From a virus, in the IMG/VR virus record IMGVR_UViG_3300023179_000148, positions 1 through 52,418 of that record: 52,418 nucleotides of DNA. One strand, 5' to 3'. The notes beneath the pieces are model-generated. The model was not told the origin of the DNA and ran no database searches. It was given only the letters and a program-made list of their open reading frames with translations. The position numbers and the translations under genes are program-made. Every line of letters begins with the position of its first letter. The first letter of the stretch is position 1. Below, one piece after another: positions 1 through 18,582 of this stretch.

Positions 1-1059
<1,059 letters not shown>

Positions 1060-1161: not shown

Positions 1162-3543
1162 ATGCCAATTAATTTCCCAGACTCGCCGTCCGTAAATCAG
1201 ACGTTCACATCTGGAACAACAACTTGGCGTTGGAATGGCACAGTATGGCTAGTAGTTCGTGACTTTGCCCCAACGGGTGCAGTCGGAAATACAGGTCCTA
1301 CAGGTGCTACAGGACAAACTGGTGCAACAGGCGCAGTTGGTAACACAGGAGCACAAGGCAACACTGGTGTAACTGGGCAAACTGGCGCAGTCGGTAACAC
1401 AGGTGCAATCGGTAATACAGGTGCAAATGGTAATACTGGTGCAACAGGTGAAACTGGTGCAATCGGTAATACAGGTGCAGTCGGTAATACAGGTGCAGTT
1501 GGAAATACTGGCGCAGTTGGTAACACAGGAGCAACTGGTAATACAGGTGCTGTAGGTAATACAGGTGTAACAGGTGCTGTAGGTGAAACTGGCGCAGTTG
1601 GTAACACAGGTCCTACAGGTATTACTGGATACACTGGCCCAACTGGTCAAACTGGTGCTGTCGGTCAAACTGGTGCGCAAGGTAATACTGGTGCAACTGG
1701 TGATGCTGGCGCAACTGGTGCAACTGGTGCACAAGGTAACTTTGGTGGTATTACTGTTGAATACAACTTTAGTACTAACACCATTGTTTCCGACCCAGGT
1801 TCTGGCAACGTAAAGTTCAACAACGCTAACGTATCTCTTGCGTCAAAGATGTCTATTGATGACGAAGATGGTAATGCAGTAGATATTCAATCAATGCTGC
1901 GTACAATTGATGACTCAACAAGCACAATCAAGGGTCACTTACGTATATCAAATAAAGCAGATTCTACAGATTTTGCTTTACTTACAATCAGCGGACTTAC
2001 AGAGCAATCAGGCTACTTTGAAGTAGATGTTGCTTATGTATCTGGCTCATCAACATCATTTACAAATGGTGAAGATGTAATTATCACTTTTGCAAGAACA
2101 GGTGATGCTGGTGCACAAGGTAATACTGGTGCACAAGGTAACACTGGTGCTACAGGTATCACTGGTGCTACTGGAGCAATCGGTAATACTGGAGCAACAG
2201 GCCCAACTGGTGAAGTTGGTAATACTGGTGCAACTGGAAATACTGGTGCGGTTGGTAATACAGGCGCGGTCGGTAATACAGGTGCAACAGGATTAACTGG
2301 TGTAACTGGTGCACAAGGTAACACTGGTGTAACAGGTGCTACTGGTGATACAGGTGCAATCGGTAATACAGGTGCAAATGGTAATACAGGAGCGCAAGGT
2401 AATACTGGTGTAACAGGTCAAACTGGTGCAACTGGAAACACTGGAGCAACTGGTAATACTGGTGCTACTGGTCTTACTGGTGTAACTGGTGCTACTGGTA
2501 ACACAGGTTCTAATGGAACATTTGCAACAACTGATGCAACACCTCCAACAAGCCCATCTCCTGTAACTGGAGATTCATGGTTTGATCCTACAAACGGTAT
2601 CGTATTTGTTTACTACGATGGTTTCTGGGTTGAAGCAGTTGGTGGAAACGTAGGTCCTACAGGTATTACTGGTCCTACAGGTGCAGTTGGTAACACAGGT
2701 GCACAGGGTAACTTCGGTGGCGCAACATTTAAGTATGCGTTCGATACAAATACCGCAGACTCAGATCCAGGCGCAGGTGATGTCAAGTTCAGTAATGCGA
2801 ACGTGTCACTAGCATCATACATGTACATCAATAAGACAGACGCAGATGCATCAGATATCTCGTCATTCTTAACAACTATTGATGATTCAACAAGCCCAAT
2901 TAAGGGTCACTTAAAGCTAACAAACATCTCTAACTCCAACGATTATGCATTGTTTACAATTGTAAATAACAGCATCACAAGTGGAGATTATTTCAAGGTG
3001 GCTGTTGCTTACGTATCAGGCTCAACGTCGTTCTCAGCGGCAGAGTCCGTTACAATTACGTTTGCCCGAACAGGTGACGTCGGTGCCGCAGGCGCTACTG
3101 GTGCAGTTGGAAATACTGGCGCAGTTGGTAACACAGGAGCAACTGGTAATACAGGTGCTGTTGGTAATACTGGAGCAACTGGTAATACTGGCGCAACTGG
3201 AAATACTGGTGCAACTGGTTCAAATGCAGTACTCACACTAGTTACAAATGCACAGACTGGTACTACATACACACTTGTACTTGCAGATGTTAATAAGCTC
3301 GTTGAGCTTAACAACGCCTCAGCAATTGCGTTGACAGTTCCAACAAACGCAGCACTTGCTGGGTTTAACGTTGGAGACCAGATTAACCTTCTTCAAACTG
3401 GAGCAGGTCAGGTCACAGTCGGAGGAGCTGGAGTTACCATCAACGGTACGCCAGGTCTTAAGCTTCGTGCACAGTGGTCATCGGCTACGCTGATTAAGCG
3501 TGCAACCGATACATGGGTACTTGTTGGAGATCTCTCCGCATAA
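1162..3543 (+). CDS. Long collagen-like tail fibre (793 aa)
   Basis: The protein opens with a roughly 35-residue N-terminal domain ([11 protein letters not shown]...[13 protein letters not shown]) shared with the fibres at 3661 and 8402, probably the virion attachment end. Four collagen-like stretches rich in GNT, GAT, GAV and GVT triplets follow. They are separated by two copies of a roughly 125-residue globular domain (starting GNFGG near residues 190 and 525, each ending with FARTGD) and one YYDGFW module near residue 490. The C-terminal 85 residues are non-repetitive and end [10 protein letters not shown] strong terminator follows. The role as a trimeric host-recognition fibre is inferred from the repeat architecture. 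Confidence 0.88.
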
Positions 3544-3651: not shown

Positions 3652-5085
<1,434 letters not shown>

Positions 5086-7389: not shown

Positions 7390-8048
7390 TGCCAATAACT
7401 AAAGCAACGGCTAGTTCGGTAGCACCAGCAGCCAAGGGAGACCTTGTTGTAGGTAGTGCCACTAATGATGCCGCAGTATTAGGAGTAGGTTCTAATGACC
7501 AGGTATTAACTGCTGATAGTAGTACTGCTACAGGACTTAAGTGGGCAACTGCCTCTAGTGGTGGTATGACTTTGATTAGCACTACGACTCTATCAAACAG
7601 GCAAACCGATATAACTTCAATTCCTGGTACATACAATAATTTGGTATTAGTTATTAATGGCGCCAATTTCCCTACTTATAATACTCAAATTGATTTAAGA
7701 CCTAATGGTGATACAGATAAGGTCACTACCGATAATAGACAAAATAGCGGTGGCTCAAATAACTCTAATGCTACAACTGCTGGGGCGCTTAATTTATCGG
7801 GTACCTACAACATATCAAATAGTAGTAGCGCCAACACTTTTGTTGTTACAATATATAATTATGCAACTAGTAGTTACTTCAAACCAATTACTAATTTTGG
7901 ATACTTACAACAATTAGGTGGCACTCAAACAGCAGTAGGTGCTTGGGGAGGCTATGCAAGCAATAGCGCCATTACAAGTATTACTTTATATCTTGGACAA
8001 AATGTCAGTTACAATTCAGGTCAAGTTCTATTGTATGGAGTTAAATAA
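7389..8048 (+). CDS. Fibre tip protein, cassette 3 (219 aa)
   Basis: Third member of the tip family. The base region (AAKGDLVVGS...VGSNDQVLTADSSTATGLKWA, about residues 13-54) is conserved. The head starts MTLISTTTLSN, is rich in Asn, Ser, Thr and Tyr, and ends VLLYGVK, echoing the endings of the other tips. No membrane or signal segment is present. The stop overlaps the start of the small partner gene at 8048. It is likely a receptor-binding tip. Confidence 0.75.
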   Translation: MPITKATASSVAPAAKGDLVVGSATNDAAVLGVGSNDQVLTADSSTATGLKWATASSGGMTLISTTTLSNRQTDITSIPGTYNNLVLVINGANFPTYNTQIDLRPNGDTDKVTTDNRQNSGGSNNSNATTAGALNLSGTYNISNSSSANTFVVTIYNYATSSYFKPITNFGYLQQLGGTQTAVGAWGGYASNSAITSITLYLGQNVSYNSGQVLLYGVK

Positions 8049-8257
8049 TGAGTACAAATAAAAAAACAGTTGTTAACTGCGAGACTGGTGAAGTTTATGA
8101 AGTAGATTTAACACCAGAGGAAATAGAAATAAATCGCATTGAGGATGAAAAAGTAGCAAATGCGATAGCCGAAGCAGAAGCAAAGGCTGCTGCTAAGGCA
8201 GCACTACTAGCACAACTAGGTATTACAGAAGAGCAGGCAAAACTTTTACTTTCTTAA
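8048..8257 (+). CDS. Small coiled-coil partner of fibre tip, cassette 3 (69 aa)
   Basis: It carries an N-terminal strand pattern (VNCETGEVYEVDLTPEE), an Ala/Glu/Lys helix and a C-terminal motif ALLAQLGITEEQAKLLLS closely matching the cassette 2 partner. It closes the three-cassette array. The role as tip assembly partner is inferred from the repeated gene order. Confidence 0.7.
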   Translation: MSTNKKTVVNCETGEVYEVDLTPEEIEINRIEDEKVANAIAEAEAKAAAKAALLAQLGITEEQAKLLLS

Positions 8258-8269
8258 CTAGGGAGAACC

Positions 8270-8389
8270 GTGTCCTACCGTGATATACCCGAGGACCGCG
8301 TAGGCACGCGGGTTGCCTCAAATATGGGCAGTGAAACACCCGCCGCAGGGCGATCACCGCAGGTAAAACCTACTATAATACGTAGGTAA
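8270..8389 (+). CDS. Small basic protein, 39 aa, GTG start
   Basis: A 40-codon frame starts with GTG at 8270, nine bases after a GGGAGA Shine-Dalgarno-like sequence, and ends TAA at 8387. The product starts MSYRDIPEDRVGTRVASNMG and ends VKPTIIRR. It fills most of the gap between the tip cassettes and the short fibre, and the next gene's AGGAGG follows directly. Its base composition is richer in G and C than the cassettes to its left. I do not recognise a family; phage structural operons often carry such short linkers. It could also be an untranslated leader. Confidence 0.4.
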   Translation: MSYRDIPEDRVGTRVASNMGSETPAAGRSPQVKPTIIRR

Positions 8390-8401
8390 CCAGGAGGAAC
8401 C

Positions 8402-8677
8402 ATGCCCGCAATAGATTTTCCAAACTCGCCGTCAATCAATGACACACATACCGTTGGCAACCGTGTTTGGAAGTGGAACGGCACCGTGTGGGAGGTCGTT
8501 CGCTCGACCGTTCCGTACTCAACGGGTGCAACGGGTGCAACGGGTGCAACGGGTGCAACTGGAAATACAGGTGCAACAGGTAATACGGGTACTGCAGGTT
8601 CTAGTATAACTGGAAACACAGGAGCGGTTGACTACACAGACGCCAACGCGGCTTTTGGTTTTCAAATATTTTCATGA
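8402..8677 (+). CDS. Short collagen-like fibre (91 aa)
   Basis: It carries the shared fibre N-terminal domain ([13 protein letters not shown]...VWKWNGTVWEVVR, about residues 3-38). Only about 40 residues of Gly-X-Thr repeats and a short tail ending AFGFQIFS follow. A strong AGGAGG sits ten bases before the ATG. It looks like a fibre reduced to its attachment domain and a stub of shaft, either a true short fibre or adaptor, or a remnant left after recombination removed a longer shaft and tip. Four perfect 9-base repeats lie in the stub. Confidence 0.75.
   Translation: MPAIDFPNSPSINDTHTVGNRVWKWNGTVWEVVRSTVPYSTGATGATGATGATGNTGATGNTGTAGSSITGNTGAVDYTDANAAFGFQIFS
8522..8557 (+). repeat. Four perfect 9-base tandem repeats (ACGGGTGCA)
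   Basis: Four exact copies of the 9-mer encode consecutive Gly-Ala-Thr triplets. Copy-number change by slippage would lengthen or shorten the shaft in steps of three residues without breaking the frame. Confidence 0.85.
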
Positions 8678-8701
8678 TAACTACCAAGGAGAAATAAACA
8701 A

Positions 8702-9061
8702 ATGGCAACTACAATAGCTCGTATTCCACTTTCAGGATCTACTCACGGACGTGGTATCAAGGTTGCCGCGACCGCATCAGCAGGCGACACAATTCACACC
8801 GCGACGTCATCAACGACCGACTGTGATGTTGTTACTCTTTATGCGTACAACTCAAGTGGTTCTGCCGTAAACCTAACGCTGCAGTGGGGTGGTACAACCG
8901 CAGTTGACGATGACATCAAGCTTTCAATTCCTGCAACCTCAGGTTTAACGCTGGTTGTTCCTGACCTGGTACTTCGCAACTCTTTGATTGTGAAGGCATA
9001 CGCTGGTACAACAAACGTTGTAACAATTCACGGATACGTAAACCGCGTAGCAACTACCTGA
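8702..9061 (+). CDS. Small beta-sandwich virion protein (119 aa)
   Basis: A 119-residue protein of alternating Thr/Val/Leu-rich strands with a repeated pattern like VTLYAYNSSGSAVNLTLQW and VTIHGYV. It has no cysteine pair, signal peptide or membrane segment beyond one cysteine near residue 40. Similar layout and N-terminus to the 104-residue protein at 5102. Preceded by AAGGAG with eight-base spacing. It is likely a structural component of the fibre or baseplate; the exact role is not recognisable. Confidence 0.7.
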   Translation: MATTIARIPLSGSTHGRGIKVAATASAGDTIHTATSSTTDCDVVTLYAYNSSGSAVNLTLQWGGTTAVDDDIKLSIPATSGLTLVVPDLVLRNSLIVKAYAGTTNVVTIHGYVNRVATT

Positions 9062-9075
9062 TAGGAGCTTAGCGC

Positions 9076-10062
9076 GTGTCGCTAATCAGTCGAATATTAA
9101 AGGCTAACCCGTCAGCGCAGGTTTCAAGCGTGCTAACTGGTAGTTTTACCGTGCCTTCTGCTAAAGCTGCTTTTATTAACACAGGTACTAGAGGTATACT
9201 TGCTGGCGGTAGAAATACTGCTGGAACTTATCTAAACTCTATAGATTATATTGATATTGCGACTACAGGCAACGCAACTGACTTTGGCGATGCTTCGCGT
9301 GTTTTTGGTTATAGTGCTTGTTGTAGTTCTAATACAAGAGGTGTTATTGCTTTAGGTGCAACTACTAGCAGCACTCTTGCCAATATAGAATATATAACTA
9401 TAGCGACTACTGGTAATACTACAAACTTCGGTGATACAACACAAGCAAGAAGTGGATTTGGCGGTTGCGGTAACACAACTAGAGGTCTATTTGGTGGTGG
9501 TGAAAGTGGTAGTCAATATAATATTATTGACTACGTAACAATAGCCACCACTGGAAATGCCACAGACTTTGGTGACTTAACTCAATCAAAGAATGGAGTT
9601 AGCGCTTGTTCATCTTCAACTAGAGGTATATGGCAAGGTGGAGATCCTAGCGGAAACACTAATGTTATTGAATATGTTACTATTGATAGCGCAGGTAACG
9701 CCACGAATTTTGGTAGTTTAACAGAAAGCTGTTCTTATACAGGTAGTTGTTCATCAACAACAAGAGCCTTAAGAGGTGGTGGTAGAAACCCAAATCCAAG
9801 CAACGTTATAGACTACATAACAATAGCCACCACAGGTAATGCTACCGACTTTGGTGATCTAACAGCAGCAAGACAAGATCTTGCTGGTGCCTGCTCTACC
9901 TATACTAGAGGTATTTTTAGTGGTGGATGGACTGGTTCGGCTACATCAAACATCATTGACTATGTAACAATAGCCACTACTGGCAACGCAACAGATTTTG
10001 GTGATCTAACAGAAGATCGCAGATTAGGCGCTGGTATGTCAAACGGACATGGAGGACTCTAA
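9076..10062 (+). CDS. Propeller-repeat host-recognition protein (328 aa)
   Basis: The start is GTG, with AGGAG about eight bases upstream. After a roughly 30-residue leader the protein is six copies of a unit of about 50 residues with the consensus (I/V)xYxTIATTGNATDFGDLT...(T)TRG(I/L)(F/W)xGG, ending with GHGGL. The regular Gly-rich, four-strand spacing resembles Kelch-type propeller blades, so a six-bladed propeller is inferred. Such domains in phage tail proteins usually act in binding to surface glycans or proteins. The stop overlaps the start of the larger paralogue at 10062. Confidence 0.78.
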   Translation: MSLISRILKANPSAQVSSVLTGSFTVPSAKAAFINTGTRGILAGGRNTAGTYLNSIDYIDIATTGNATDFGDASRVFGYSACCSSNTRGVIALGATTSSTLANIEYITIATTGNTTNFGDTTQARSGFGGCGNTTRGLFGGGESGSQYNIIDYVTIATTGNATDFGDLTQSKNGVSACSSSTRGIWQGGDPSGNTNVIEYVTIDSAGNATNFGSLTESCSYTGSCSSTTRALRGGGRNPNPSNVIDYITIATTGNATDFGDLTAARQDLAGACSTYTRGIFSGGWTGSATSNIIDYVTIATTGNATDFGDLTEDRRLGAGMSNGHGGL

Positions 10063-11942
10063 TGCCATATCTACCACAGATTAAGATTCTTGTTCCTAGC
10101 GCACAAGTTTCTACATATACAACTGGGTCTTTTAGTTTGCCTAGTGCTAAGGGTGCATTTGTCACTCCTAACATTGGTGTTTTTACTGGTGGAGAAAATA
10201 ATGGTGCAGTTTTTAGAAATACTATGGATTATATCAATATACAGTCTTTATCCAATGCAACTAATTTTGGTAATCTAACAGTTTCTCGTTCTTATGTTGG
10301 GGGAGTTAGTAGTACAACAAGAGGCGTAGTAGGTGGTGGATACACAGGAACATACCAAAATGAAATGGATTACATAACAATAGCAAGTACTGGAAATGCC
10401 ACAAGTTTTGGAACTTTATCAGTTTCAAGATATGGTCCTAGTGGAGTATCAACTTCTATAAGAGGTATTTTTGGTGGTGGAGAAGGTGCTTCAATGACCA
10501 ATGTATTGGATTACATAACAATTGCTACAACTGGAAACGCCATTGACTTCGGTGACCTAACAGTTGCAAGACACTCAACTAGTTCTTTTCAATCTCCAAC
10601 AAGAGGAGTATTTTCTAGCGGTAATGATGCAAGTAGCACTAATGTTATTGATTATGTAACTATGGCTACAACGGGAAATGCCGTTGATTTTGGTGATGTG
10701 ACTGTTTATAGAAATGGTCTTGGAGGTTGTTCTTCAACAACAAGAGGACTATTTGCTGGTGGAAATGGCGCTGGTGGTTATCAAAATGTCATAGACTATG
10801 TAACCATTGCCACAACAGGTAACGCCACCGATTTTGGTGATTTAAGTGTTGCAAGACTAGGTAATAGTGGAACATCAAACAGTACAAGAGGAGTTTGGGG
10901 TGGTGGTGAAGATGGTAGTAATGGACTAAACACTATTGATTACAACACTATTTCAACAACAGGCAATTCAGTAGACTTTGGTGACTTAAGTGTTGCAAGA
11001 AGAAGATTAGCAGCCGTTTCAGATTCTCATGGAGGTCTTGACCTAGCTACGTTTGAAAGTGGAAGTGGACAGGCATTTAGTGCCTCAGGTTCAAGAAAAA
11101 CATCGGGCGCTGGAGCGATAACGATAGATAGTTTTAACATCACAAACTTCTCATACACAACTACTTTTGGTGACGTTGTTGGAGCCTACGGAGGAAGAGG
11201 TGCTTGTGCATCTAGCACACGAGGTTTACTCTTTGGCGGAGGTAATCCGACAAACGATATTGAGTACTTTGACTTTGCCTCAAAGGGTAACGGAATTAAC
11301 TTTGGAGATTTAAGTAGGGTGTTAGACAGACCAGCAGGTTTAGCAAATGAAACTAGAGGAATATGTGCCAACGGAAGTAACGGCAGCAGCACAAACTACT
11401 CGACGATAGAGTATGTAACTATTGCAACTACGGGTAACACAACAAACTTTGGAAACTCTACCCAGGCAGCTCAAGCATCAGGTGGTCTATCCTCTAGCAC
11501 ACGAGGAGTTATGTTTGGCGGAGAAAGTGGAGTTGGTGTTAATAACTACTCAGAAATGGGATATATAACCATTGCCACAACAGGAAATGCATCTACTTTT
11601 GGTCAACTAACAGTCGCAAGATGCTTTGTCTCAGGAGCTGCTTCAACCACAAGAGGCTTGATGGCAGGTGGAATTATCTCTAGTGGTTCGAACGTTATTG
11701 ATTACATAACCATTGCGTCAACAGGTAATGCCACCGACTTTGGTGATTTAACCGTTGCTACGGCAAAAAATCTTAACTGTGGTACCTCAGATAAAGTTAC
11801 TGCAGTCTGGGCAATGAACAATAACAATGATTTATTAGAAAAAGTTACCATCGCGTCAACGGGCAATGCCACAAGCTTTGGAAACTTAGCCGAGAGTAGA
11901 TATGCCTGTGCTATGGTAGGAAATTCACACGGAGGGGTATAA
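10062..11942 (+). CDS. Double propeller-repeat host-recognition protein (626 aa)
   Basis: A paralogue of the preceding protein, with an N-terminus aligning to it (PSAQVS...TGSF..PSAKGAF). Residues about 30-325 hold six units with the consensus YxTIATTGNATDFGDLxVAR and TRGxxxGG, ending DSHGGL. A roughly 45-residue linker follows, then a second six-unit set ending NSHGGV. This suggests two six-bladed propellers in one chain, or gene fusion after duplication. Blade sequences are most similar at the DFGDL core and differ at loop positions. Translational coupling to the preceding gene suggests they form one tail substructure. Confidence 0.78.
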   Translation: MPYLPQIKILVPSAQVSTYTTGSFSLPSAKGAFVTPNIGVFTGGENNGAVFRNTMDYINIQSLSNATNFGNLTVSRSYVGGVSSTTRGVVGGGYTGTYQNEMDYITIASTGNATSFGTLSVSRYGPSGVSTSIRGIFGGGEGASMTNVLDYITIATTGNAIDFGDLTVARHSTSSFQSPTRGVFSSGNDASSTNVIDYVTMATTGNAVDFGDVTVYRNGLGGCSSTTRGLFAGGNGAGGYQNVIDYVTIATTGNATDFGDLSVARLGNSGTSNSTRGVWGGGEDGSNGLNTIDYNTISTTGNSVDFGDLSVARRRLAAVSDSHGGLDLATFESGSGQAFSASGSRKTSGAGAITIDSFNITNFSYTTTFGDVVGAYGGRGACASSTRGLLFGGGNPTNDIEYFDFASKGNGINFGDLSRVLDRPAGLANETRGICANGSNGSSTNYSTIEYVTIATTGNTTNFGNSTQAAQASGGLSSSTRGVMFGGESGVGVNNYSEMGYITIATTGNASTFGQLTVARCFVSGAASTTRGLMAGGIISSGSNVIDYITIASTGNATDFGDLTVATAKNLNCGTSDKVTAVWAMNNNNDLLEKVTIASTGNATSFGNLAESRYACAMVGNSHGGV

Positions 11943-11948
11943 GATAAT

Positions 11949-12800
11949 ATGGACATAGAGAAAACAGGTGAGAGGAACTTCATGGAGATAGCACTACAGG
12001 AGGTAAGTAACGATCTAGCAATAACCCCTGAGTATAAGGGAATGTTGGAGCACATCAATGCTAACCTTCCTGCGATTAGCAGAGATTCTGAGAACTTCTA
12101 TAAGTCAGCGTCTCAGTTTAAGAACGTAACCTTAGACGTTACCGACCTTACCCCGATGGGTTCACTAAAGCACATCCTTGCGGTAATTGACCGCACCCGC
12201 ATGGCGCTAGAGGAAGCTCACATCTCAGTTAAGCGTAAGCAAATTGAGTTAAAGAAAAAGACCATCGAGTACGACAATGCCGAGGAAGGTCCTGACAAGG
12301 AACTTCTATGGGTAGATATCGTCGAGATAAACAACCACCTAAACAACTCTGAAAACTCAGTCAAGGGCGCGTTGCGCAAGTTAAGTTTCTTTACTACCCA
12401 ATATCAAGCTATAATGCAAAAACTTGGCAAGGATGAAATTACCGAGGAAGACTACGAGCTTAACGAGTCTAGACATCATGTAATGACCGCGATGAAACAA
12501 GCTCTAAACGCAGCTCGTACTCGAAACGGAGTTATCGATGAAGGTAATCATATTTATTTATTTGACATGGGTATCAACGGTGCAGTTGCCCAGGCTGAAA
12601 TTTTTGCCTATTTACAAGCAGAGCAAGAAATGCTTGCAAAGGGTGAAGAACCAACCCACGAGCTCACAGTTAGATGGCTTGAGGCTTGCGCCGACAAGTT
12701 TGCTGACTGCGGAGCTAAGTTCGCTGAACTACGTGGTTTCATTCCACTAGACAAGAAATCACTAGCAAAGGAGATTACAAGTGGCAAAGAAAGTAATTAG
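11949..12800 (+). CDS. Helical phage protein of unknown function (283 aa)
   Basis: A charged, mostly helical protein without cysteine motifs except near the C-terminus (CADKFADCGAKF). Residues 75-150 look like a coiled coil (RTRMALEEAHISVKRKQIEL). No catalytic motif is seen. A second in-frame ATG at 11982 with an upstream GAGAGG is an equally plausible start; the annotated one has GGAGG thirteen bases before it. The gene directly follows the propeller genes and overlaps the next gene by 20 bases, so it probably belongs to the tail-fibre operon. Confidence 0.65.
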   Translation: MDIEKTGERNFMEIALQEVSNDLAITPEYKGMLEHINANLPAISRDSENFYKSASQFKNVTLDVTDLTPMGSLKHILAVIDRTRMALEEAHISVKRKQIELKKKTIEYDNAEEGPDKELLWVDIVEINNHLNNSENSVKGALRKLSFFTTQYQAIMQKLGKDEITEEDYELNESRHHVMTAMKQALNAARTRNGVIDEGNHIYLFDMGINGAVAQAEIFAYLQAEQEMLAKGEEPTHELTVRWLEACADKFADCGAKFAELRGFIPLDKKSLAKEITSGKESN

Positions 12801-13191: not shown

Positions 13192-14232
13192 ATGATAAAA
13201 GTTGCCGCATATACCATCGCCCTAAACGAGGAGAAGCACGCTCAGCGGTGGGCAGACACTACTAAAGATGCAGATTTTAGATTGGTATGTGATACAGGAT
13301 CTACAGATAAAACAGTAGAGATATTAAGAAGTAATGGCGTTGTTGTCTATGAAATAAGTGTAAAGCCTTGGAGATTTGATGTTGCAAGAAATACTGCTCA
13401 AAGCCTATTGCCAGCAGATATAGATGTATGTTTAAGTTTAGATTTAGATGAAGTAGTAGATAAAGATTTTTTTAAAAAAGTAAAAGAACACTGGGCACCT
13501 GGTGCTAATAAAGGATGGTGTGACTTTGACACTGGTCACACTTGGCTTGGTGCTCGTTTGCACGCTAGAAATGGTATTTATTGGAAGTATCCTATTCATG
13601 AAGTATTTGTTCCATCCCTTGACACTCCCTTAATGAGTTGTACTATTCCTACCAAAATGTATCATAAACCAGATAATACAAAGTCTCGTGGTCAGTATAT
13701 GACAATGCTTGTTGCAGCAAGTAAAGAATTTGGCGAAGATCATAGGATTTGGGTTTATCTTTGCCGTGAGTATTTTTACTACAGAATGTGGGAACTAGTT
13801 ATAAGTAGCGCTCAAAAAGTTACTGATTTTAGTAAAGATTGGTACGTAGAACGTGCGGCAGTTTGTAGATTTGCATCAGAAGCATGTAGAAATTTAGGAA
13901 GACTTGAAGAAGCTCATACTTGGGCAGATAAAGCAATATCAATTGATCCATGCGGTGAGGCTTATTATGAAAAAGTACGTTGTTACTATGAACAATCAGA
14001 CTGGAGTGGCGTCTGGGAAACTTGTAAATTAATTGCTAAATGTGAACCAACTAAGCATTATTTATCGTCTGAAGCACTATGGAATTGGATGCTAGACGAT
14101 ATGAGAGCTTTATCTGCTCACAATTTAGGAGATAAAGAAAAAGCAATAGAATATGGAGAAAAAGCCCTTAAAGGAAATCCGAACGAGACTAGATTAAAAA
14201 ATAATTTAGTTTTTTATCGCCAAGGTATTTAA
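13192..14232 (+). CDS. Glycosyltransferase family 2 with C-terminal TPR-like region (346 aa)
   Basis: The N-terminal GT-A domain has a nucleotide-sugar binding start (VAAYTIALNEEKH), the motif CDTGSTDKT (residues 33-41) and a DxD-type motif LDLDEVV with Asp84 and Asp86, as in family 2 glycosyltransferases. Residues about 215-340 form helical repeats resembling TPRs (for example LGDKEKAIEYGEKALKGNP). It would transfer a sugar from an activated nucleotide donor; the acceptor is unknown. The stop overlaps the start of the second glycosyltransferase at 14232, so the pair likely works together, plausibly on fibre proteins or host glycans. Confidence 0.85.
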   Translation: MIKVAAYTIALNEEKHAQRWADTTKDADFRLVCDTGSTDKTVEILRSNGVVVYEISVKPWRFDVARNTAQSLLPADIDVCLSLDLDEVVDKDFFKKVKEHWAPGANKGWCDFDTGHTWLGARLHARNGIYWKYPIHEVFVPSLDTPLMSCTIPTKMYHKPDNTKSRGQYMTMLVAASKEFGEDHRIWVYLCREYFYYRMWELVISSAQKVTDFSKDWYVERAAVCRFASEACRNLGRLEEAHTWADKAISIDPCGEAYYEKVRCYYEQSDWSGVWETCKLIAKCEPTKHYLSSEALWNWMLDDMRALSAHNLGDKEKAIEYGEKALKGNPNETRLKNNLVFYRQGI

Positions 14233-15098
14233 TGATACAGCCAAACGTATTTTTAGCCCTTCTTGTAAAACAAAAAGAAGCCGTTCTTCCACTTTTTTTA
14301 GAAAGTTTAAATAATTGGGACTATCCTAAAGAAAACATATTTATCTACATTAGAACTAATAACAACACAGATAACACAAAACAACTTTTAGAAGAGTGGA
14401 TAGAAGAATATGGGGATAAATATAAAGGATTAATCTACAACAGCGAAGATGTGCCAGAAAAGGTAGAAAAATATGATGTTCATTTTTGGAATGGAGAAAG
14501 ATTTAGAGTTTTAGGAAAAATTCGTCAAGAAAGTATGAATCAAGCTTTGCTAACAGATTGCGAATATTACTTTGTAGTAGATATCGATAACTTTTTGTTT
14601 CCAGAAACTCTTAAAGAGTTAGTAAAACTAGACTTACCAATAGTTGCTCCATTTTTAAGGTATGCGGTTGCTTTTGGAGAAAATGCTGATACTCCTATAG
14701 AAGCTGCTAAGCGAGAAGGTCATATGAGTAGGTACTACTCAAACTATCACGACAAGGTAGATGATTTTGGATCAATTATTGCAGAAGATATTTACTACAA
14801 AATTTTAAATCAAGAAATAAAAGGACTAATTGAATGTATGTGTGTTCACTGTACTTATTTAATTAAAAGAGAGTATTTATCTGAACTTAATTATTTAGAG
14901 CAATCAGATCGCTGGGAGTATATGGTTTTTTCTAATTCGGCTAGGGATAAAGGGATTACTCAGTACCTAGACAATAGAACTATATATGGAGTTTTAACCT
15001 TAAGCGAAAATATAGGGGCTTCTAGATGGTGGTTTAATTACTTAAAGAGTAAAGAAAATAGAACAGAAAAATATAAATCTATTACTAGTTTTACATAA
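14232..15098 (+). CDS. Collagen galactosyltransferase-like glycosyltransferase (288 aa)
   Basis: The domain opens with PNVFLALLVKQKEAVLPLFL, then NWDYPKENIFIYIRT, then NNNTDNT (residues 43-49), a DxD motif VVDIDNFLFP (Asp117, Asp119), IVAPFLR (about residue 137), and VHCTYLIKREYL (about 205-216). This order and wording recall the N-terminal glycosyltransferase domain of animal procollagen galactosyltransferases (COLGALT/GLT25D) and lysyl-hydroxylase GT domains, where I recall LALLARN, a DHNxDNT-type motif and a DxDN motif. The assignment is from memory of those sequences. In this phage the acceptor could be the collagen-like fibres; a generic GT-A role is the alternative. The 3' end overlaps the convergent epimerase gene by eight bases. 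Confidence 0.75.
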   Translation: MIQPNVFLALLVKQKEAVLPLFLESLNNWDYPKENIFIYIRTNNNTDNTKQLLEEWIEEYGDKYKGLIYNSEDVPEKVEKYDVHFWNGERFRVLGKIRQESMNQALLTDCEYYFVVDIDNFLFPETLKELVKLDLPIVAPFLRYAVAFGENADTPIEAAKREGHMSRYYSNYHDKVDDFGSIIAEDIYYKILNQEIKGLIECMCVHCTYLIKREYLSELNYLEQSDRWEYMVFSNSARDKGITQYLDNRTIYGVLTLSENIGASRWWFNYLKSKENRTEKYKSITSFT

Positions 15099-16095
15099 TT
15101 CTATCTGTCCAAGTTTTTGGAGTTTTATTAGTAATAAACTCTAAAGGCAGGTGATAATTAAATTCTCTAGCGCCTTTGGATTTAATCCAATTTACTAGTT
15201 CTATTAATCCAGAATTCAACAAAGTAGTAGTTTTATAGTTTAAAAGTTCTCTTGCTAGATCGGCTGAGCAGTTAGCGTGAAACACTTCTTGAGGTCTTCC
15301 TGGCATATAAATTGGATCTAACTTAAAATTAATAATTACTGATAGTTTTTGGGCTAGTTCATTTATGGTAACAAACTCTTCATCTGGACCAATATTAACA
15401 ATTTGACCATCAGCAACATCGGTCTCACATGCAATCATAAGTGGGTCGATAACATCTTGCATAAATGAGAAACACCTTTTTTGCTCGCCATTTCCATAAA
15501 TAATAGGTTGCTTGCCTTGAAGCATTCTATTTATCATAATCGAGGCTACGTTTCTGTAGGGGTCATCAAATTTTTGTCTAGGACCAATGATGTTGTGTGG
15601 AACGAGTATTACATAATTAAGTCCGTGAGTGTCTGCAATATTTTTAATCATAAGTTCAGCCCCGTACTTTGCAATTCCATACGGATCCTGAGGCTTAGGA
15701 GTCATTGACTCAACAAAAGGAACTACATCTTGAGTTCCATACCTTGCCATAGAAGATAAATGAACAATTTTTTTAACATTAGCCTTTACACAAGCACTCA
15801 TTATGTTTGTAGTTATCTGCATAGTATTTCTGACAACTAGGGATGGAGAAAATACAGAGAGTCCTTCATAAGCAGTACATGCAGTATGAACTACTAAATT
15901 TACATTTTCAAAAAGAGGTTGGATTAGTTCTAAATTATCTAAATCTATATTATAAAAATCAACATCTGAAGGTACATTTTCTTTGTATCCACCTAGTAAA
16001 TTATCTATTCCTATAACATCATAGCCTTTAGCAAGAAAAGCATCTGCTAAATGACTGCCCATAAATCCTGCTACACCAGTTATTAATACTTTCAT
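15091..16095 (-). CDS. NAD-dependent epimerase, UDP-glucose 4-epimerase-like (334 aa)
   Basis: An extended short-chain dehydrogenase/reductase with the NAD-binding motif GVAGFMGS (Gly7, Gly10, Gly13), an acidic residue after the second strand (IGIDN, Asp31), an active-site Ser in HLSSMARYG (about residue 114) and the catalytic YGIAK (Tyr139, Lys143). Length matches GalE-type enzymes, which interconvert UDP-glucose and UDP-galactose; related members act on other nucleotide sugars or are dehydratases, so substrate is inferred. The gene ends tail-to-tail with the collagen-galactosyltransferase-like gene and overlaps the start of its downstream partner's reading by four bases at 16092. Confidence 0.85.
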   Translation of the reverse strand: MKVLITGVAGFMGSHLADAFLAKGYDVIGIDNLLGGYKENVPSDVDFYNIDLDNLELIQPLFENVNLVVHTACTAYEGLSVFSPSLVVRNTMQITTNIMSACVKANVKKIVHLSSMARYGTQDVVPFVESMTPKPQDPYGIAKYGAELMIKNIADTHGLNYVILVPHNIIGPRQKFDDPYRNVASIMINRMLQGKQPIIYGNGEQKRCFSFMQDVIDPLMIACETDVADGQIVNIGPDEEFVTINELAQKLSVIINFKLDPIYMPGRPQEVFHANCSADLARELLNYKTTTLLNSGLIELVNWIKSKGAREFNYHLPLEFITNKTPKTWTDRIM

Positions 16096-16772
16096 TTGTT
16101 AATTGCTTTTTTTAGTTTTGTAATATCACTTTCAAAGTTTGTTATTTTGTATTTAGCAAAAGCATTTCTTTCGCGCTCATACATCCAAGGAGAGTTTATC
16201 GCAGAATACAGATCATCAACAGGTGCTTTACTAACTGCGTAGTGATGATGCTCTAAAATAACTTCAGGACAGTATCTAAGAGTTCCCATAAAATCACCTA
16301 ACAGTTTCCAAAAATTATCTATATATAGATGTAATAACTCAGGGGGGGCTAGATAGCCAAGTGTTCTTACAATATTTAAATCAAAACAAGTTCCGTTGCT
16401 AGGTAAACGATCCCTTTGAGCCAAATCATCTGGGTATGAAATGCCCATAGGCACATCTTTTATTGCATTAATAAGGTTTTCATCCCACTTAGGTGTCATC
16501 ACAATTGTGTCATCAGCTGCCCAAAGAATATAGTCATACTCGTTCATATACTTATTTGCCATTCGATTTAATTTTTCATTCACACCTAACTGCTCTGGTT
16601 TAGGCCCTATTTCATATTTAATACCCTGCATTCTTGGATATAAAGCGTGATCATCTTCATCTAAGCAAGCGATTATGTCTGAAACAGTTGAGTGGTACCT
16701 TAAAGAGTCTACTGCTCTAACAAATCTTTTAGGACGAGTTCTAGATGGAACTAAAATAACTGAACGAGTCAT
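16092..16772 (-). CDS. Glycosyltransferase family 2-like protein (226 aa)
   Basis: Compact GT-A-like protein. It starts SVILVPSRTRPKRFVRAVDSL, as in nucleotide-sugar binding N-termini, has DEDDHALY (about residue 38) and a central WAADDTIV (about residue 114) that would hold the metal-binding acidic pair. The ending EHHHYAVSKAPVDD contains a His cluster typical of small phage and bacterial glycosyltransferases. Its stop overlaps the start of the epimerase by four bases (ATGA), so they are co-translated. Substrate unknown; fibre or cell-surface glycosylation is inferred from neighbours. Confidence 0.75.
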   Translation of the reverse strand: MTRSVILVPSRTRPKRFVRAVDSLRYHSTVSDIIACLDEDDHALYPRMQGIKYEIGPKPEQLGVNEKLNRMANKYMNEYDYILWAADDTIVMTPKWDENLINAIKDVPMGISYPDDLAQRDRLPSNGTCFDLNIVRTLGYLAPPELLHLYIDNFWKLLGDFMGTLRYCPEVILEHHHYAVSKAPVDDLYSAINSPWMYERERNAFAKYKITNFESDITKLKKAINK

Positions 16773-18057: not shown

Positions 18058-18582
18058 CTATAAAACTGCTTTTTTACGCTTGTTTTTCTTCTTTAATTTT
18101 TCTTTTTTCTTTTCTAATTTGGCTGCTTTATCAATTTTTTCAGCTTTATATGCTTCTACTGCATTTGCGCTAGTTCTACTTCTCCAAGCAAAGTTGCACT
18201 CAGTGCAAGTAACAATTTTTGCTGTAGTCCATCTTCCAGTTGTTGATAGTTTTTCCACAGATGTTTCTAGTTTGCTAGGTCTAGCAGTACAAAACGGACA
18301 GTTAGGATATCTGCGCCGACGAGTCTCTTCTCCAAGATATGAAACTGAAAGAGTTCTACGAATTTCAATTTCATCTTTGCCTCCCCATATTCCCCAAATT
18401 TGTCTGTGTTCTAAAGCCCACTGTAAACAATCTTTTCTTACAATACAAGAAAAACATAAATTTTTAGCATCGTATTTTTCAGAAAAATCTTTGGAGAAAA
18501 ACCAGTCTAAATATTTTTTATTTGATGGCTTGGCACATAAAGCTTCACTTTGCCATTTAAGGCTTTCTGCTGGTTTCCACAT
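18058..18582 (-). CDS. WhiB-family Fe-S regulator fused to a zinc ribbon (174 aa)
   Basis: Residues 1-80 are a WhiB domain with the four cluster cysteines Cys16, Cys43, Cys46 and Cys52 (C...CxxC...C) and the GIWGG turn (residues 64-68). WhiB proteins bind a 4Fe-4S cluster and usually act with the primary sigma factor as transcription regulators. Residues 95-129 add two CxxC pairs (NCPFC and TCTEC), a probable zinc ribbon, and the last 30 residues are almost pure Lys/Glu. Usual WhiB proteins are about 80-130 residues, so this is a longer, fused form. It probably redirects host transcription or keeps superinfecting phage out; role inferred. Confidence 0.88.
   Translation of the reverse strand: MWKPAESLKWQSEALCAKPSNKKYLDWFFSKDFSEKYDAKNLCFSCIVRKDCLQWALEHRQIWGIWGGKDEIEIRRTLSVSYLGEETRRRRYPNCPFCTARPSKLETSVEKLSTTGRWTTAKIVTCTECNFAWRSRTSANAVEAYKAEKIDKAAKLEKKKEKLKKKNKRKKAVL

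Follow-up and report, generated by a model that had tools for sequence, protein, structure and literature searches.

In human COLGALT1 (GLT25D1) the C-terminal GalT_C domain, of glycosyltransferase (GT) family GT25, is catalytic and the N-terminal GalT_N domain is reported to be dormant; GalT_N and the accessory domain of LH3 (PLOD3) are described as dormant, structural domains (2026 review, PMC13382579). This view of GalT_N is not beyond doubt, since mutation of its DxD motif, D166/D168, abolished GLT25D1 activity (PMC3244457). The dormancy review also gives D461/D463 to GalT_N, while the 2011 paper places this motif in the C-terminal domain. Mimivirus has collagen GTs (PMC9546862), and phage GTs are known to glycosylate the capsid and the tail tube of virions, as cited in PMC12363180. 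Here we describe a gene at positions 14232-15098 (+) of a 52,418-base IMG/VR virus record from a freshwater phage, the whole of which is termed the window, encoding a putative GT of 288 amino acids that is a relative of the GalT_N family and probably works on collagen. We think it fairly probable that this protein and the GT encoded directly upstream form a collagen-dedicated glycosylation system, in which a Thr-linked sugar in position Y of the Gly-X-Y triplets would replace proline as stabiliser of the triple helix.

The open reading frame (ORF) begins with ATG as described in an earlier sequence-only reading, and the motifs LALL, YPKEN, NNNTDNT, VVDIDN, IVAP and VHCTYLI, which that reading had likened to those of COLGALT enzymes, were all present in the order claimed. 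The ratio of non-synonymous to synonymous substitution (dN/dS) relative to four relatives was 0.024-0.075, indicating strong purifying selection. When all PDB chains were searched by phmmer, COLGALT1 was the best match (E 3e-15), followed by LH3 (6e-7) and then by a match at 0.16; for a profile of 13 phage homologues the corresponding values were about 1e-24, 6e-10 and 0.2. Chance resemblance of the motifs was rejected on the COLGALT1 values. An AlphaFold2 model based on 37 phage and bacterial homologues (pLDDT 93) predicted a GT-A fold, and Foldseek against the PDB placed human COLGALT1 first (E 1e-22, 290 columns, TM 0.78 over the query). Below it ranked LH3 (3e-19), mimivirus R699 (1e-14), TarS (8e-11, the first generic GT2), Mnn9 and RmlT, and a generic GT2 identity was rejected on this difference. 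The proposed enzyme class therefore stood, with COLGALT1 as best match by sequence, profile and fold. Among viral structures the best named matches included a giant-virus procollagen-lysine dioxygenase and a PLOD-like GT domain. The lysyl hydroxylase LH3 and R699, a virus-encoded collagen glucosyltransferase, have the next-best folds; their similarity is lower (17-22%), R699 belongs to giant viruses of eukaryotes and not to a tailed phage, and no hydroxylase was found among the window ORFs scanned.

The generic folds ranked next below the collagen enzymes, TarS, RmlT and TarP, are those of wall-teichoic-acid GTs. They would fit a protein that blocks superinfection by decorating wall polysaccharide or teichoic acid of the host surface and that lies near the fibres through a shared variable host-interaction module. 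GTs of freshwater actinophages have been proposed to serve host-surface modification and DNA protection (PMC10202952), and a GalE-like epimerase and another GT adjoin the gene. We nevertheless regard such a role as unlikely: COLGALT1 outscores these folds by about 12 orders of magnitude, and the role leaves unexplained the co-occurrence with Gly-X-Thr collagens in bacteria, the domain correspondence and the loss of proline described below.

The protein scored below the curated Pfam cut-offs for Anp1 (26.5 bits vs 28.8) and Glycos_transf_2 (20.4 vs 23.3), the former being passed by some of its bacterial homologues. No family was found for it in PHROGs or NCBIfam and no match by tblastn in INPHARED phages; IMG/VR held 67 related loci. 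DNA modification is a known role of phage GTs, as cited in PMC12619734, but glucosylation or other hypermodification of the phage DNA by this protein appears highly improbable. No homologue among the known DNA GTs was found for it in PHROGs, no base-hypermodification genes were found among the window ORFs scanned, and the bacterial chromosomal copies adjoin surface collagens.

The regions matched by the 288 amino acids are GalT_N in COLGALT1 and the accessory domain in LH3, and the protein ends without the C-terminal catalytic GT25 domain. The GT25 family (PF01755) was not found in the window and was present as separate genes in 2 of 17 related phage records. The earlier likeness to the COLGALT GT domain was thus upheld as homology to COLGALT1, but for the N-terminal half and not for the catalytic one. 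Among the 37 homologues 36 columns were invariant, including the segment R41-T-N-N-N-T-D47 (R41, N43, N44, N45, T46 and D47), the metal-site residues D117 and D119, which are the equivalents of D166/D168 in GLT25D1, N120 and H206. Human GalT_N keeps 23 of the 36, DxDN and the His among them, and differs at the equivalents of R41, N43, N44, T46 and H84. From this pattern we infer an enzyme that would be active in prokaryotes and decayed in human GalT_N.

The description of human GalT_N and the LH3 accessory domain as structural could also be extended to the window protein, which would then be a non-catalytic scaffold or chaperone while the upstream GT2-TPR enzyme did the glycosylation. The pairing of the two genes in all partner loci found would agree with this, as would a bacterial genome (G160) that has Gly-X-Thr collagens and only the partner GT. 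We find it quite unlikely, given that the DxD, the His and RTNNNTD are invariant in the homologues where human GalT_N differs at four of these positions (R41, N43, N44 and T46), and that several bacterial homologues are without a fused GT2-TPR domain.

Collagen-like ORFs, three long and one short, were found on the same strand as the GT gene, in agreement with the sequence-only reading. The first is cut by the left edge of the window (1-1059, +) and has 41 Gly-X-Y triplets with mostly Thr in Y; the second (1162-3543, +; 793 amino acids) has 126 triplets, the third (3661-5085, +; 474 amino acids) 54 and the short protein (8402-8677, +) nine. The three fibres scored above the PF01391 cut-off with E from 1e-9 to 3e-53, the latter for the fibre of 793 amino acids. 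Thr made up 72% of Y in the 221 Gly-X-Y triplets of the window collagens, and no Lys was found among them. A hydroxylysine acceptor (Gly-X-Lys) is therefore excluded for these fibres, and Thr in Y is the obvious candidate hydroxyl for a sugar. Since neither a GT25 domain nor a hydroxylysine acceptor was found when looked for, the protein should not be filed as COLGALT. It shares with COLGALT1 the predicted fold and sequence of GalT_N, the DxD, the VHxTxLI segment and a link to Gly-X-Y proteins, and it differs in having no GT25 domain, a non-hydroxylysine acceptor, residues that human GalT_N has lost and a GT2-TPR enzyme as partner.

Collagen matches were found in 14 of 15 GT-positive phage contigs above 40 kb. 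The collagens of GT-positive phages contained 0.02-0.10 Pro per triplet with a Thr fraction in Y of 0.67-0.81, while those of GT-negative capsid relatives contained 0.27-0.54 Pro per triplet with 0.46-0.74 Thr in Y; the ranges for Pro did not overlap (p 1.4e-4). Base composition was rejected as the cause of low proline, as phage GC was 0.46 vs 0.45 and the bacterial GT-positive loci are GC-rich. The GT-positive phages are held by three capsid subclades, and the capsid tree leaves a single gain of the GT possible. In bacterial collagens Pro typically occupies part of the X positions (19-31%; PMC8968730). The BclA spore proteins of Bacillus, which are bacterial collagen-like proteins with sugars and Thr-rich Y, differ in that Pro in X is still common (31% in Gram-positive collagens; PMC8968730), the comparison being one of collagen features.

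The enzyme is not specific to phages, as bacteria carry longer versions of it. Two peptide patterns of the GT family, which used no collagen information, were run against 84,980 species genomes and identified 25 bacterial chromosomal or contig loci with a homologue at 39-51% identity, in Mesorhizobium, Methylobacterium, Acidisoma, Rhodoblastus, Methylobacter, Paenibacillus and others. Long Gly-X-Y ORFs lay within about 8 kb at 15 of the 25 loci, with up to 456 consecutive triplets and Y nearly always Thr; a rough null that generously allows 10 collagen loci per genome puts this proximity at about 1e-16. PF01391 was present in 24 of the 25 genomes. In the Mesorhizobium proteins both halves of COLGALT1 were found in order (query 4-516, E 3e-41), the C-terminal domain matching GT25 (PF01755, E 5e-18), and most bacterial homologues have an N-terminal GT2-TPR part.

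This part corresponds to the partner gene of the window, which encodes a GT2 domain with TPR (13192-14232, +; phrog_13126) and is joined to the start of the GT gene by a TAATG stop-start overlap. A profile of the partner matched that part of the bacterial proteins at 96.8% with E 3e-10 over 307 columns. The GT was present as well at every one of the 34 phage loci in which the partner gene was found. The partner profile by itself found few bacterial genomes (2 of 39).

In the bacterial COLGALT-like proteins the C-terminal extensions vary with lineage (L040, L042, L048, L057, L232), with a sulfotransferase in L048, a methyltransferase in L232 and unassigned sequence in L040 and L057, which suggests swappable collagen-decorating modules. 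The proline-free Gly-X-Thr collagens of Rhizobiales (L229, L255, L256) adjoin genes resembling a type I secretion ABC transporter and an HlyD-type adaptor. Three Mesorhizobium collagens (L047, L045, L049) share an N-terminal MARASEILFVDPS head that resembles a surface-adhesin head domain.

The association was also analyzed in 199 evenly drawn genomes from the order of Mesorhizobium sp. AR07, with Gly-X-Thr collagens scored by an exact (Gly-X-Thr)8 DNA pattern. The GT was found in 7 genomes, any PF01391 match in 61 and (Gly-X-Thr)8 in 14, and all 7 GT-positive genomes belonged to both collagen sets. The pattern was thus present in 7/7 GT-positive vs 7/192 GT-negative genomes (p 1.6e-9), or 4/4 vs 7/192 when only newly drawn genomes were counted (p 5.5e-6); of the seven GT-negative matches, those in G169, G170 and G179 are likely to be repeats other than collagen. 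The collagen was on the same contig within 8.4 kb of the GT in 5 of the 7. For a second order the GT was found in 2 of 200 genomes and (Gly-X-Thr)8 in 2/2 GT-positive vs 3/198 GT-negative ones (p 5e-4), the two lying about 280 kb apart in one genome of this order (G467). The collagens of GT-positive bacteria had a median Pro of 0.01 per triplet compared to 0.53 in GT-negative ones, the latter being top PF01391 hits (one per genus, p 3e-5).

Genomic association and composition point to glycosylation of the fibres. The gene at 14232-15098 would encode an active GT-A enzyme of the family of animal COLGALT1's N-terminal half which, together with the upstream GT2-TPR enzyme, would glycosylate the phage's own collagen-like fibres inside the infected cell, most likely on Thr at Y of Gly-X-Thr triplets. 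The sugar would assume the stabilising role of proline/hydroxyproline, leaving the fibres nearly proline-free. The phage pair would be a split form of a bacterial single polypeptide of GT2-TPR and GalT_N-like parts, in Mesorhizobium also GT25, encoded beside giant Gly-X-Thr surface collagens. Stabilisation of the collagen triple helix by glycosylation is described in works cited in PMC10141479, as is the collagen of the vent worm Riftia, in which galactosylated Thr and not hydroxyproline dominates the stabilising position.

Several observations weigh against this reading. Among 27 capsid relatives collagen was found in 5/6 GT-positive vs 10/21 GT-negative phages, which is not significant (p 0.14), and the latter count means that the GT is not needed for every phage collagen. 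The correlation expected between enzyme and collagen is thus strong in bacteria and evident in phage collagen composition but weak for co-presence in phages, and the composition contrast in phages comes from only two or three capsid lineages. For bacteria, the use of top PF01391 hits biases the GT-negative collagens towards proline-rich ones, and only the (Gly-X-Thr)8 test is free of this bias. Proline-containing collagens occur at a few GT-positive loci (L040, L231, L233), and some genomes have Gly-X-Thr collagens and no GT (G098, G160, G218, G453). In G160 a close homologue of the phage partner GT (L254, 6948-8114, E 2e-63) lies within about 8 kb of a proline-free Gly-X-Thr collagen, and no COLGALT-like gene is present. 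Finally, the homologous human domain is reported to be dormant (PMC13382579).

A wider proposal, which we advance only tentatively and with more doubt than confidence, is that prokaryotes and phages have dedicated collagen glycosylation by a COLGALT1-like two-domain enzyme acting on proline-poor Gly-X-Thr substrates stabilised by a Thr-linked sugar. Animal COLGALT1 might then derive from such an enzyme, its N-terminal half being a retired Thr-collagen GT. In the literature searched we found no mention of a COLGALT-related enzyme of bacteria or tailed phages, of the fused bacterial architecture or of a link between enzyme and composition, and a search for bacterial COLGALT homologues together with collagen-like proteins gave nothing relevant. 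The glycosylation reading addresses how bacterial and phage collagens hold stable triple helices without hydroxyproline. A widespread enzyme that predicts Thr-rich, proline-poor collagen offers a testable answer, namely that a Thr sugar replaces proline. If correct, glycosylated triple-helical fibres would be a new kind of virion modification. The virion GTs of mycobacteriophages Che8, Corndog and Myrna are likewise phage-encoded and glycosylate the phages' own virion proteins; compared by target, which for the window protein is a predicted one, they act on capsid and tail tube and not on collagen fibres. COLGALT1 would also gain a prokaryotic relative and possible origin, the enzyme-like look of human GalT_N despite its reported dormancy would be accounted for, and a tool for thermostable collagen biomaterials made in bacteria could result.

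Downstream of the GT gene, and overlapping it tail to tail by 8 bp, is a gene for a GalE-like nucleotide-sugar epimerase (15091-16095, -), with UDP-glucose 4-epimerase 4zrm as best PDB match (E 6e-43). That it supplies UDP-galactose as donor is speculation. A second accessory GT follows (16092-16772, -; phrog_14945). A related phage record (G251; locus L247, G251:1-13000) carries a glycosylation cassette at 7422-12468 beside collagen fibres, with a further GT, two GT25-like genes, a GT2-TPR-methyltransferase fusion and a COLGALT-like gene on the opposite strand.

The window also encodes tape measure, minor tail and major tail proteins, a major head protein, DNA polymerase A and an SNF2 helicase. 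Between the fibres and the GT pair, the region 9076-11942 (+) encodes proteins of 328 and 626 amino acids made of tandem repeats around TTGNATDFGDLT; the larger had no match in Pfam, and the two are perhaps beta-propeller-like receptor binders. The ORF at 18058-18582 (-) was WhiB-like by eye, and this, together with a resemblance to freshwater actinophages (PMC10202952), suggests an actinobacterial host.
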